Assembly: GCA_024403795.1 (NCBI GenBank)
Contig: JAKSRD010000001.1
Location: 62,001 to 126,000, forward strand
Direction: 5' to 3'
DNA: 64,000 bases
From: Saccharofermentans sp.
GTDB taxonomy: Bacteria > Bacillota > Clostridia > Saccharofermentanales > Saccharofermentanaceae
Made by a program: the position numbers and the translations under genes. Below are positions 13,234-36,194 of the stretch, in pieces (position 1 is the first letter of the stretch; each line of letters starts with the position of its first letter). The notes below the pieces were generated by a model, which had not been told where the DNA came from, made no database searches, and worked only from the letters and a program-made list of their open reading frames with translations.

Positions 13234-13464
13234 TCACATGTAGGCGCACGAATTGCGGTCGTTCATACCCTCATCCGACTCATAATTAGCGCGGAATTCC
13301 ATATTGATGTCCTTGATCTCGCGCTTACCGTCGATATAGTCCTGATACATCTCCGCAAGTCCCGCCATGCATCCGTCACACGAGCCTCCGATATTGCCTA
13401 TCGATTCGGCAACGATCTGCTCACGTTCTTCTCTCGTCGTATCCTTGATCAGAATGCTCTTCAT
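13234..13464 (-). CDS. Small Cys-containing protein of unknown function
   Basis: A 76-residue acidic soluble protein: MKSILIKDTTREEREQIVAE, then a GGSCDGC motif near residues 27-33, a helix with LAEMYQDYIDG, and a C-terminal NSCAYM. Three Cys residues, two as CxxC, suggest metal binding or redox chemistry. Its ATG overlaps the rnr stop codon (ATGA), so it is translationally coupled to rnr. I do not recognise a named function. Similar short proteins with such an N-terminus occur in Clostridia, as far as I can recall, but I could not check this. Confidence 0.65.
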   Translation of the reverse strand: MKSILIKDTTREEREQIVAESIGNIGGSCDGCMAGLAEMYQDYIDGKREIKDINMEFRANYESDEGMNDRNSCAYM

Positions 13465-15638
13465 CAGCGTCTTCCTTTACCTTTGCCGGAATTTTTGCCG
13501 TAACTCTTTCCGAAGCTCTTACCCGAACCTCTTCCGAAATCGCCCGCATGGCCTCTTCCCGACCCTTTGCTCTTTCCGACAAATCCCGTTGATCTGTCAG
13601 AACTTCTGCCTCTTGAAGATGGATCTCTCGGTCTGTCGTTACGTTCTTTTCTGTCAGAAGAACGTCTGCCTGAGCGGTCCTCCCTTCTTCCTTTGCCTGT
13701 AGAACGCTCTTTCTTATAGACCTTCGCGCCCTTGTTCTCCCTCAGATCGCGCATGTTCTCAAAACCGAATTCAAAAGAGAAATCGATCTTATTCTCTTCC
13801 GTATCGACTTTCTCGACAACGATCGCAACCGGCATGCCTATTGAGAGGATCTTTCCGCCGTGAGCGCCGATCGCTCTGTAGGAACGCTCATCAAAGAAAT
13901 AGTGATCGCGAAGTGTTCTGAAAGGAACAAAACCTTCAATGGTATTCTCAAGTCTTACAAAACATCCGGCATCGATTATCGAAGAGATGACACCGTCATA
14001 ATGCTGTCCGATCTTATCGGCCATGTATTCGCAGATCTTGATATCGTCTGATGCTCTCTCTGCCTCAACGGAATTGCGTTCCATGTCGGATGAATGCTCG
14101 GAGACATTATCAACAAGACCTGCAAAGTGACCTGTGGCAGCCTCACCGTGCAGATAGCTCTTAATGATCCTGTGAATGTAAAGGTCAGGATATCTTCTGA
14201 TAGGTGAAGTAAAGTGGCAATAATACTTCGATGCAAGGCCGAAATGTCCGAGGCACTCGGAAGAATATCTTGCCTTAGCCATTGATCTTAACAATATCTC
14301 ATTCAAAGCCGGCATTGCGCTCTCATCGCCGATGGTACCCATGAACCTCTGAATATCCAAAGGCTTGATCCTGCCGAACAGTCTTCCGGATGCACCGAAG
14401 AACTTTGCGATGTTAGAGAATCGTGCGATCTTGATCGGATCCGGATCTTCGTGAACACGATAGACAAACGGATACTGAAGTTCTGTGAACTTCCTCGCAA
14501 TGAACTCGTTTGCACAGATCATGAACGATTCGATAATTCCGTTCGTGAAGTTGATCGGATAAGGCATTACGTCATTTACGGTGCCGTCATCGTTAAGTAT
14601 GACTTTAGTCTCAGGCATCTCAAAGGCAATGGCGCCGCGCTTCTCTCTCATCACTCTGAGGATCTCTGCAAGCTCCTCCATACTCTTCAGCATCGGAATG
14701 ATCTCACCGTATTCTTCCTCATCTCCGGGCTGTGGATCAGTCAGTATCCTGTAGCACTCGTTATAGCTCATCCTTCTGTCTGATCTGATGACACTCTCAT
14801 AGACTTCTCCGCCATAGATGCCTCCCTCACGGTCAACAAGCATCTCTGCAGTCATGGCAAGTCTGTCGACATTGGGATTCAAGCTGCAAAGGCCGTTGGA
14901 GAGCTTCGGCGGAAGCATCGGAATTACGCGGTCAACGAGGTATACGGATGTGCCTCTGTTGAATGCTTCGGCATCCAGAGCCGTTCCTTCTCTTACATAA
15001 TTCGATACATCTGCAATATGCACATAAAGCTTAAAATTACCGTTACGCTGTCTCTCGATCGATATGGCATCGTCCAGATCTTTTGCATCCTCGCCGTCGA
15101 TAGTGATCGTGAGAATGTCACGCTTATCACGTCTTCCTCCCTCAAGCTCCTTAACGATCTGTTCAGGATCGGGATTGATCGGAAGCGGCTCAACCTCCTT
15201 AAGGACATTGTCGGGGAATGTCTGGGAGAGACCATACTGTCTCAAGACAGTCAGCATCCTTACATCGTTATTGCCGATATCACCGAGCACTTCCTTGATG
15301 GTGCCGCGGCAATCTCCCTTCTCACAATTCGGATTAAGGACTTCAACAACAACGACCATGTTAAAAGGTGCACCGTTCAGGTGGTTCTTATCGATCCTTA
15401 TCGCACCGAAGTCAGTGCTTCTGAACGACGGATCCGGAATTACGACTCCGCCCGTCTCAGTCTGCCTGAGCATGCCGATGACCTGGTTCTTAACCTGAAG
15501 CGGTCCTCTCGGCGCAAGATCTGCCAGCGTCGGCGGAAGCGGCGAACGCTCCTCGGAAGCCTTGATGACTCTGTTTCTCTTACGCTGTGACTCACTCATC
15601 TTTCCGGCAAACTGCGGCTTGTTATTTGTATTTCCCAT
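13464..15638 (-). CDS. rnr: Ribonuclease R (RNB family 3'-5' exoribonuclease)
   Basis: A 724-residue hydrolytic exoribonuclease that degrades structured RNA and is involved in rRNA and tmRNA quality control. It has cold-shock-like domains at the N-terminus, then the RNB catalytic core: TITIDGEDAKDLDDAISIER near residue 180 with the Mg2+-binding Asp cluster, YVREGTALDAEAFNRGTS, and FTSPIRRYPDLYIHR near residue 490, followed by an S1 domain. The last ~90 residues are a Gly/Arg/Ser/Lys-rich tail that is longer and more repetitive than usual and probably binds RNA. Upstream is a short A+T-rich region; no clear promoter was found. The start at 15638 is followed by an unstructured MGNTNNKP head. 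Confidence 0.95.
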   Translation of the reverse strand: MGNTNNKPQFAGKMSESQRKRNRVIKASEERSPLPPTLADLAPRGPLQVKNQVIGMLRQTETGGVVIPDPSFRSTDFGAIRIDKNHLNGAPFNMVVVVEVLNPNCEKGDCRGTIKEVLGDIGNNDVRMLTVLRQYGLSQTFPDNVLKEVEPLPINPDPEQIVKELEGGRRDKRDILTITIDGEDAKDLDDAISIERQRNGNFKLYVHIADVSNYVREGTALDAEAFNRGTSVYLVDRVIPMLPPKLSNGLCSLNPNVDRLAMTAEMLVDREGGIYGGEVYESVIRSDRRMSYNECYRILTDPQPGDEEEYGEIIPMLKSMEELAEILRVMREKRGAIAFEMPETKVILNDDGTVNDVMPYPINFTNGIIESFMICANEFIARKFTELQYPFVYRVHEDPDPIKIARFSNIAKFFGASGRLFGRIKPLDIQRFMGTIGDESAMPALNEILLRSMAKARYSSECLGHFGLASKYYCHFTSPIRRYPDLYIHRIIKSYLHGEAATGHFAGLVDNVSEHSSDMERNSVEAERASDDIKICEYMADKIGQHYDGVISSIIDAGCFVRLENTIEGFVPFRTLRDHYFFDERSYRAIGAHGGKILSIGMPVAIVVEKVDTEENKIDFSFEFGFENMRDLRENKGAKVYKKERSTGKGRREDRSGRRSSDRKERNDRPRDPSSRGRSSDRSTGFVGKSKGSGRGHAGDFGRGSGKSFGKSYGKNSGKGKGRR

Positions 15639-15842
15639 TTATATATCCTCAAAACATTTTTCTTTATTCTACTACAAGGTTTATTTAAACAAAATATTTG
15701 ATAATAATACAAAGTAATATATATCGCCTGCTTTGACACACTTTTATCTCACAACTGATGTCGAATTGATGCCGAACCTATACCGTTACTATTTTTCGAG
15801 CTGCAATAATGGCAATATCAAAACTAAAGGATTGCTTAATGT

Positions 15843-15908
15843 TCTGTTAAGGAAAGAAGATTTTGCAGTTAAGGTTCGGAATATACACTGTAGTCATAAA
15901 GGTTAAGG
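15843..15908 (+). promoter_or_regulatory. Direct repeats resembling LytTR/AgrA-type binding sites
   Basis: TCTGTTAAG at 15843-15851 and GCAGTTAAG at 15865-15873 repeat with a 22-base period, and a third GTTAAGG copy lies at 15902-15908. Nine-base repeats with a 12-13 base gap and a GTTNAG core are the known pattern for LytTR response regulators such as AgrA and ComE; each site here departs from that consensus at about one base. The second repeat could overlap a -35 with TAGTCA (15891-15896) as -10. Confidence 0.45.
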
Positions 15909-15944
15909 CCTTAGGGTAAACAAGATAAACGGAGGATAAATAAA

Positions 15945-16004
15945 ATGAAAAATGTATGGGATCGTTTCGCAATGTTCTGCGCAAGAATCTGGGTAGCAAT
16001 CTGA
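15945..16004 (+). CDS. 19-residue amphipathic peptide, function unknown
   Basis: The frame reads MKNVWDRFAMFCARIWVAI and a TGA stop. A strong GGAGG (15931-15935) sits 9 bases before the ATG and a hairpin terminator follows at 16062-16092, so this looks like a complete, small transcription unit. The peptide is rich in Trp, Phe, Ile and Val with a net positive charge and one Cys, so it could lie on a membrane. There is no signal peptide and no AgrB-, AgrC- or bacteriocin-type partner nearby. A signalling peptide, a membrane-active peptide or a leader peptide are all possible; none is shown. Confidence 0.55.
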   Translation: MKNVWDRFAMFCARIWVAI

Positions 16005-16061
16005 GATTCAATTCAGCAAAAAAGGGTCACACCTTTTTAATATATACAGCCCCCCTCAATA

Positions 16062-16092
16062 AAACCTCACTCAATAAGCAGTGAGGTTTTTA
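16062..16092 (+). terminator. Terminator after the 19-residue peptide gene
   Basis: AAACCTCAC (16062-16070), a 10-base loop and GTGAGGTTT (16081-16089) followed by further T residues. The A-rich left side means it may also work on the minus strand. Confidence 0.75.
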
Positions 16093-16275
16093 AATGCCCG
16101 GCGTTATGGGATGTGATCCTAATCTTCAGTTTTCCCTGATTTCGGATGACACGCCTGCCGGAGAAGAGGTCTTTACCGCAGAGATGTTTTCGAGGCCATT
16201 TGATCAAGCACTCGAAAAAAAACATTACTGAGCCCCCTTCTTTCCTCATGCACTCAACTAAGTCACGACTCCTAA

Positions 16276-16327: not shown

Positions 16328-16579
16328 TTACCAAGCCTTTGCAATTGAGAGATAGAGAACAAGGGATACTATTACGAACAAAACGCAACAAACTACTGTC
16401 CAAGTCTTAAGCTGCTCTTCAAGAGTTCTGCCCTTTGCCTTGCTGTAGTAGGAGTCGGATGAACCGCCTGCTACAACGCCGATACCCTGATCATTACCTT
16501 CCTGAACGAGGAAGAGGATAATGATTGCGATAGCCAAAATAATATCTACAACACTAAGAACGATATTCAATGCGGTCAT
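16328..16579 (-). CDS. secG: Preprotein translocase subunit SecG
   Basis: An 83-residue membrane protein with the SecG layout: a first helix (VLSVVDIILAIAIIILFLVQ), a Gly/Ser-rich cytoplasmic loop (GVVAGGSSDSYYSKAKGRT), and a second helix (VVCCVLFVIVSLVLYLSI). It belongs to the SecYEG channel and helps protein export across the membrane. GGAGG precedes the start. SecG and rnr are commonly neighbours in Firmicutes; here the 19-residue peptide gene lies between them on the other strand. Confidence 0.9.
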   Translation of the reverse strand: MTALNIVLSVVDIILAIAIIILFLVQEGNDQGIGVVAGGSSDSYYSKAKGRTLEEQLKTWTVVCCVLFVIVSLVLYLSIAKAW

Positions 16580-35960: not shown

Positions 35961-36045
35961 AAAAAAGCCTCCGTCTGACAGTACGGGTAGCCGCCTAACC
36001 CAAAGGCCGTACCAAAGACAAGAGGACACAAATACGTTATATGAA

Positions 36046-36122
36046 GTTCCCTACGCCGGCATTATCCGTTCAGGTTCGACGGGTCGGATCGTTGATCCCT
36101 CTCAGCCGTAACAGGCTCCCCG
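36046..36122 (-). ncRNA. TPP riboswitch (THI box) upstream of thiT
   Basis: On the minus strand the two conserved blocks are present in order: CTGAGAGGGATC near 36103-36092, and ACCTGAACGGATAATGCC running into GGCGTAGGG at 36074-36049. The closing stem is GGGGAGCC paired with the distal region. Between the aptamer and the ATG (36045-35961) lies a GTACGG...CCGTAC structure near the GGAGG, probably the expression platform. Thiamine diphosphate binding should switch off thiT. Confidence 0.93.
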
Positions 36123-36194
36123 ATTACTATTGTCGTAGAGACTATACAACAAGATATCGCAATGTGCAAGCAAGGTTTCCGGAAATCTTAATGA

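Follow-up and report, generated by a model that had tools for sequence, protein, structure and literature searches.

A 19-codon peptide unit beside secG as a probable member of a predicted DUF975-linked two-component regulon in Saccharofermentans

Organization of the unit between rnr and secG

An isolated 19-codon open reading frame in Saccharofermentans sp. raises the question of what controls so small a unit and what it produces. The frame lies in the window, the whole 64-kb stretch of DNA analysed here, which belongs to a 1.72-Mb draft genome (G000, 64% complete). The unit is read from the + strand, divergently from rnr (13464-15638, - strand; RNB-domain exoribonuclease, Pfam RNB 1e-107) and convergently with secG (16328-16579, - strand; Pfam SecG), both of which lie outside it; secG has its own terminator and served as the synteny anchor. 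An earlier note on this DNA had described a self-contained small-peptide gene with repeats at 22-base spacing, a GGAGG, a 19-codon frame and a terminator, and with no transporter, processing protease or histidine kinase adjacent. All of these parts were found in place, the surrounding genes being rnr, secG and one for a P-type ATPase, and the unit does appear self-contained, with a predicted regulated promoter and a terminator of its own.

The two 9-mers, CTGTTAAGG (15845-15853) and CAGTTAAGG (15867-15875), are equal at 8 of 9 bases and lie 22 bp apart, with 13 bp between them. They overlap two putative regulator boxes on the + strand, GTTAAGG (15846-15852; sequence and shuffle test) and the proximal GTTAAGGTT (15868-15876), which occupy positions 11 and 33 of an 11-bp register. 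Two further parts had been overlooked in the earlier note: a third TTAA box, CTTAAT (15835-15840, + strand), at position 0 of the same register, and a -10 box, TACACT (15884-15889, + strand), 10 nt past the last GTTAAG. Transcription would start near 15896. Downstream on the + strand follow a Shine-Dalgarno sequence, GGAGG (15931-15935), and the 19-aa peptide gene MKNVWDRFAMFCARIWVAI, running from ATG to TGA (15945-16004). A 3' tail common to two other loci of G000 (16028-16060; alignment, shuffle tests and tail model R1) contains the C-rich stretch CCCCCCTC (16050-16057). The unit closes with an intrinsic terminator, AAAACCTCACT ... AGTGAGGTTTT (16061-16090), recognized by fold, a perfect 11-bp inverted repeat and a T-run.

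Directly past the terminator, a 45-aa ORF (16094-16231, + strand) showed intermediate codon usage and no Pfam match. An Rfam search of the window returned no family at the peptide locus, and its sole match was a TPP riboswitch (RF00059) at 36031-36132 on the - strand.

A genus-specific promoter element

We searched with the pattern GTTAAGG-N15-GTTAAGGTT, which includes neither the TTAA at -11 nor the -10 box. The pattern occurs as a single copy in the window and in 0 of 100 shuffles. Within G000, five element sites were found at no more than one mismatch, compared with none for a reversed control, and at three mismatches the counts fell to background. Across the genus, the element was detected in 51 of 85 genomes at the same tolerance of one mismatch. 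A TTAA lies 11 bp 5' of the first GTTAAGG in 67 of 69 sites, and a TANNNT stands exactly 10 nt past the last GTTAAG in 68 of 69, and both features hold at the window site. The full element therefore reads NTTAAN at 0, GTTAAGG at 11 and, at 33 bp, GTTAAGGTT, followed after exactly 10 nt by a -10 box of the form TANNNT; position 22 of the register is degenerate.

The exact element was present in 36 of 188 genomes of the order, all of them in one of its 30 genera, and in none of the 103 genomes of the other genera. A looser pattern run over all GTDB species gave 16 matches, one of them within the genus (G006) and the rest judged by their taxa to be at chance level. On this sequence evidence, the repeats of the window are part of a stricter, genus-specific predicted promoter element. 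Its tandem direct repeats in a register of about 11 bp, placed near the -10 box, have the layout of an OmpR/PhoB-type operator.

Genes behind the element and the linked regulator

The five strong G000 sites precede a DUF975-regulator-kinase operon, an M13 peptidase gene and three short units. We classified 71 sites of the genus by reading the downstream DNA, with gene classes assigned by profile for the G000 operon on contig C7 and by sequence motifs in the other genomes. At 40 of the 71 sites, a DUF975-like membrane gene lies downstream, usually followed by a response regulator gene and, where the contig stretch was long enough, by a histidine kinase gene after these two. An M13-peptidase lipoprotein gene, then one for an FtsX/MacB-like protein whose MacB_PCD match falls only below the cut-off, follows the element at 21 sites. 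ABC ATPase operons follow it at 3 sites, and the other 7 sites include the three short units of G000. An element profile (R2) added more ABC operons, others of this kind whose first gene looks to encode a secreted product, and membrane proteins of about 200 aa that look like CPBP-type proteases; a 70-aa fragment of such a membrane protein matched no family.

In the C7 operon, the membrane protein is a member of the DUF975 family (PF06161, E 5.9e-24), the response regulator carries Response_reg and Trans_reg_C domains (Pfam), and the histidine kinase carries HisKA and HATPase_c. The closest Protein Data Bank entries to the regulator were RegX3, MtrA and BaeR, and the best NCBIfam models were VanR, MtrA and PhoB, all far below cut-off. 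The earlier note had proposed looking in the genome for LytTR regulators; G000 does encode five LytTR-domain proteins, elsewhere than in the element-linked operon, and no LytTR gene was seen beside the element in the loci read. Judged by this genomic association of regulator and sites, the element is probably the autoregulatory box of an OmpR/PhoB-type two-component system of the envelope type. The nature of the target genes suggests that envelope stress would be its signal. No description of a DUF975 regulon was found in the literature searched.

Coding evidence and conservation of the 19-mer

The synonymous-codon index of the 19-mer was 0.83, compared with 0.77 ± 0.09 for 18-codon pieces of real window genes and 0.54 ± 0.13 for off-frame pieces, 1% of which reach 0.83. 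The window holds four ATG-initiated ORFs of 15-45 codons that are preceded by a Shine-Dalgarno sequence and have an intergenic midpoint, and the 19-mer ranked top among them by both scores. The peptide has a net charge of +2 and a hydrophobic moment of 0.48, a value matched by 5% of shuffles; an amphipathic helix at the membrane surface would fit these properties.

No homologue of the 19-mer was found in the 84 other genus genomes (E <= 0.1), nor in relatives, phages or viral contigs; weak matches at E 0.17-0.7 were not credited. Around secG, both the peptide and the GTTAAG pair were missing from the 29 relatives examined; rnr was in reach beside secG in most of them, so that the true intergenic region was read. 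Conservation in relatives, by which the earlier note had proposed to judge the unit, was thus divided: the promoter element is shared, and the peptide frame is absent. The unit appears species-specific at present sampling.

Three sister units with a shared 3' tail

The three short units of G000, at the window locus, C3:33602 and C23:64607, have the promoter in common (in its GTTAAGGAA variant), and the boxes and the -10 are intact at all three sites. They also share a tail, consisting of ACC-TTTTAATA-N-ATA, CCC(C)CTC and then CCTCAC-loop-GTGAGG-T. When the hairpin was left out, the tail alignment scores were attained by 1, 9 and 0 of 2000 shuffles, and the alignment of the middles was at or near background. 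Tail model R1 matched only the three G000 units in 85 genomes; the three tails fit their own model by construction, and the shuffle test is the independent evidence. Weaker R1 matches elsewhere had no repeat pair upstream and mostly looked like ordinary terminators, with some coding DNA, and a tail match in the genus genome G087 was rejected as a terminator region. The tail conservation is that of three paralogues in one genome.

The middle of the C23 unit (L035:4040-4660 of G000, - strand) is a three-peptide operon behind the same promoter; its peptides, of 29, 30 and 36 aa, each have one hydrophobic segment and lysine-rich ends, including a lysine-rich C-terminus. We rejected an assignment of this unit to kdpFA, since it holds three small membrane-peptide ORFs instead, and a Pfam LPXTG-anchor match on one of the peptides as mere resemblance through a hydrophobic segment and lysines. 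The C3 unit has no short ORF preceded by a Shine-Dalgarno sequence before its terminator; it contains one 80-codon frame, whose ATG is near the predicted RNA start and which runs through the terminator.

In part, the C-rich stretch is predicted to be unpaired (0.58-0.88). Tail segments paired with 29 translation starts of the window at -8.4 to -9.8 kcal/mol and more weakly with CDS (-6.0 to -7.5 kcal/mol) and shuffled sequences (-5.5 to -6.9 kcal/mol), an excess that an anti-Shine-Dalgarno RNA should show but that counts for little, as some pairing with Shine-Dalgarno sequences is to be expected from any C-rich segment.

Weighing the alternatives

The earlier note had likened the repeats to LytTR targets of the AgrA/ComE type and had suggested a quorum-sensing or membrane-active peptide, or a leader peptide, as the product; a bacteriocin-like peptide under LytTR control was weighed as well. 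The 9-mers CTGTTAAGG and CAGTTAAGG do resemble AgrA/ComE-type operators, whose direct repeats measure about 9 bp and are separated by 11-13 bp, and LytTR-domain proteins do exist in the genome. LytTR operator repeats, however, are found some 10 bp before the -35 (PMC6193735), whereas here the proximal repeat precedes the -10 by 10 nt, an extra box completes an 11-bp register, and the element is tied genus-wide to an operon with an OmpR-type regulator, which in the C7 operon has the Response_reg and Trans_reg_C domains. For a quorum-sensing peptide, moreover, transporter, protease and receptor genes would be expected as partners and none is adjacent, and the peptide is not conserved. We regard LytTR control as very improbable, and the 19-mer gene is most likely a stress-response part rather than a quorum-sensing signal. 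An attenuator role is just as doubtful: a short ORF followed by a terminator has the look of a leader, but what comes next is secG, which is convergent and ends in a terminator of its own, the + strand downstream holds only the 45-aa ORF, and the 19-mer contains no run of a single regulatory codon. With no gene further along for it to regulate, a leader peptide is unlikely.

Two other readings carry more weight. The unit might be mainly a non-coding regulatory RNA whose C-rich 3' module blocks translation starts, with the 19-codon ORF secondary or incidental. The C3 sister, with promoter and tail and no Shine-Dalgarno-preceded short ORF, the partly unpaired C-rich stretch and the anti-Shine-Dalgarno energy excess all speak for it, and it has precedents. 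In streptococci, CiaR sites read NTTAAG-N5-TTTAAG and are separated by 10 nt from the -10, and the CiaR csRNAs are several short, terminator-ended transcripts with anti-Shine-Dalgarno segments in unpaired regions (PMC3091779). CiaRH is a two-component system built on the same general plan, with TTAAG boxes and the same distance to the -10, and its csRNAs resemble the present units in number, in terminators and in what may be anti-Shine-Dalgarno segments here. In the present case, however, the boxes stand at 0, 11 and 33 bp, the N5 pair is the distal one (0 and 11), only one box lies 10 nt from the -10, which is not the CiaR arrangement, and the regulator is encoded together with DUF975; of the three short transcripts, two or more contain peptide ORFs. 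In Listeria, LhrC1-5 are multicopy short RNAs that depend on LisRK and are induced by envelope stress; their UCCC motifs bind targets at the Shine-Dalgarno region, and LhrC is described as non-coding (PMC4132741). The units would share with LhrC the multicopy short transcripts under one two-component system (here a predicted one) and the C-rich motifs, but the window unit carries a peptide ORF, and no Rfam family matches the window locus. The good Shine-Dalgarno sequence and gene-like codons of the 19-mer, the three clear small-peptide ORFs of the C23 sister and a tail not conserved beyond G000 stand against an RNA that is mainly non-coding, which we consider a minority possibility. Still less probable is a promoter/terminator cassette that was duplicated recently and has no product under selection, species-specific and either decaying or neutral. 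Confinement to G000 and a C3 copy without a clear ORF would suit it. Against it stand the like ends around unrelated middles, which do not resemble a simple decaying duplication, the gene-like codon usage of the ORF, and the boxes and -10 intact at all three sites.

Proposed function of the unit

We conclude that the unit is likely a member of the regulon and encodes a peptide, a reading based on comparative sequence evidence. The OmpR/PhoB-type regulator would come from the two-component system encoded with DUF975 on contig C7; once phosphorylated, it would bind the TTAAG boxes of the 11-bp register and bring in RNA polymerase at a promoter that lacks a good -35. The window unit would then be switched on together with the DUF975 and peptidase operons, giving an RNA of about 195 nt that ends near 16090 and is translated into the amphipathic 19-aa peptide of net charge +2, which probably lies on the membrane.

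On top of this role, it is conceivable, though doubtful, that the tail also serves as a trans-acting module, its C-rich stretch pairing with Shine-Dalgarno regions in the way that CiaR csRNAs and the LhrC RNAs of Listeria do. Equally tentative is the wider proposal of a dual-function stress RNA family under a DUF975-linked envelope system. Its members would have a constant two-component promoter at one end, a constant C-rich anti-Shine-Dalgarno 3' module at the other and an exchangeable middle: the 19-aa peptide, an operon of three one-helix peptides, or no ORF. The envelope system would be undescribed.

Under the peptide-encoding regulon reading, a lone mini-ORF becomes a predicted regulon member that can be tested, and the binding site of a DUF975-linked two-component system, seen in dozens of species of one genus of rumen bacteria, is modelled precisely. 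This reading also offers the poorly described DUF975 family a possible role in envelope or antimicrobial-peptide stress. If the shared 3' module does base-pair, the units would be short stress RNAs whose coding parts can be exchanged.

Weaker and irregular copies of the element

In two other genus genomes (loci L286 and L268), membrane proteins of 59-62 aa are encoded behind weaker copies of the element. ABC-transporter operons stand behind copies at L142, L137 and L169 in other genomes of the genus, the L142 copy being irregular (GTTATGG ... GTTAAGG). G000 itself has a weak sixth site (L279:569-860, from G000:C10:40568 onwards, + strand; E 1e-3), which is followed by a Shine-Dalgarno sequence, AGGAG, and a 4-codon ORF, ATGTGGCTGTATTAA; the unit of about 120 bp is tandemly repeated twice and then followed by a terminator-like hairpin.
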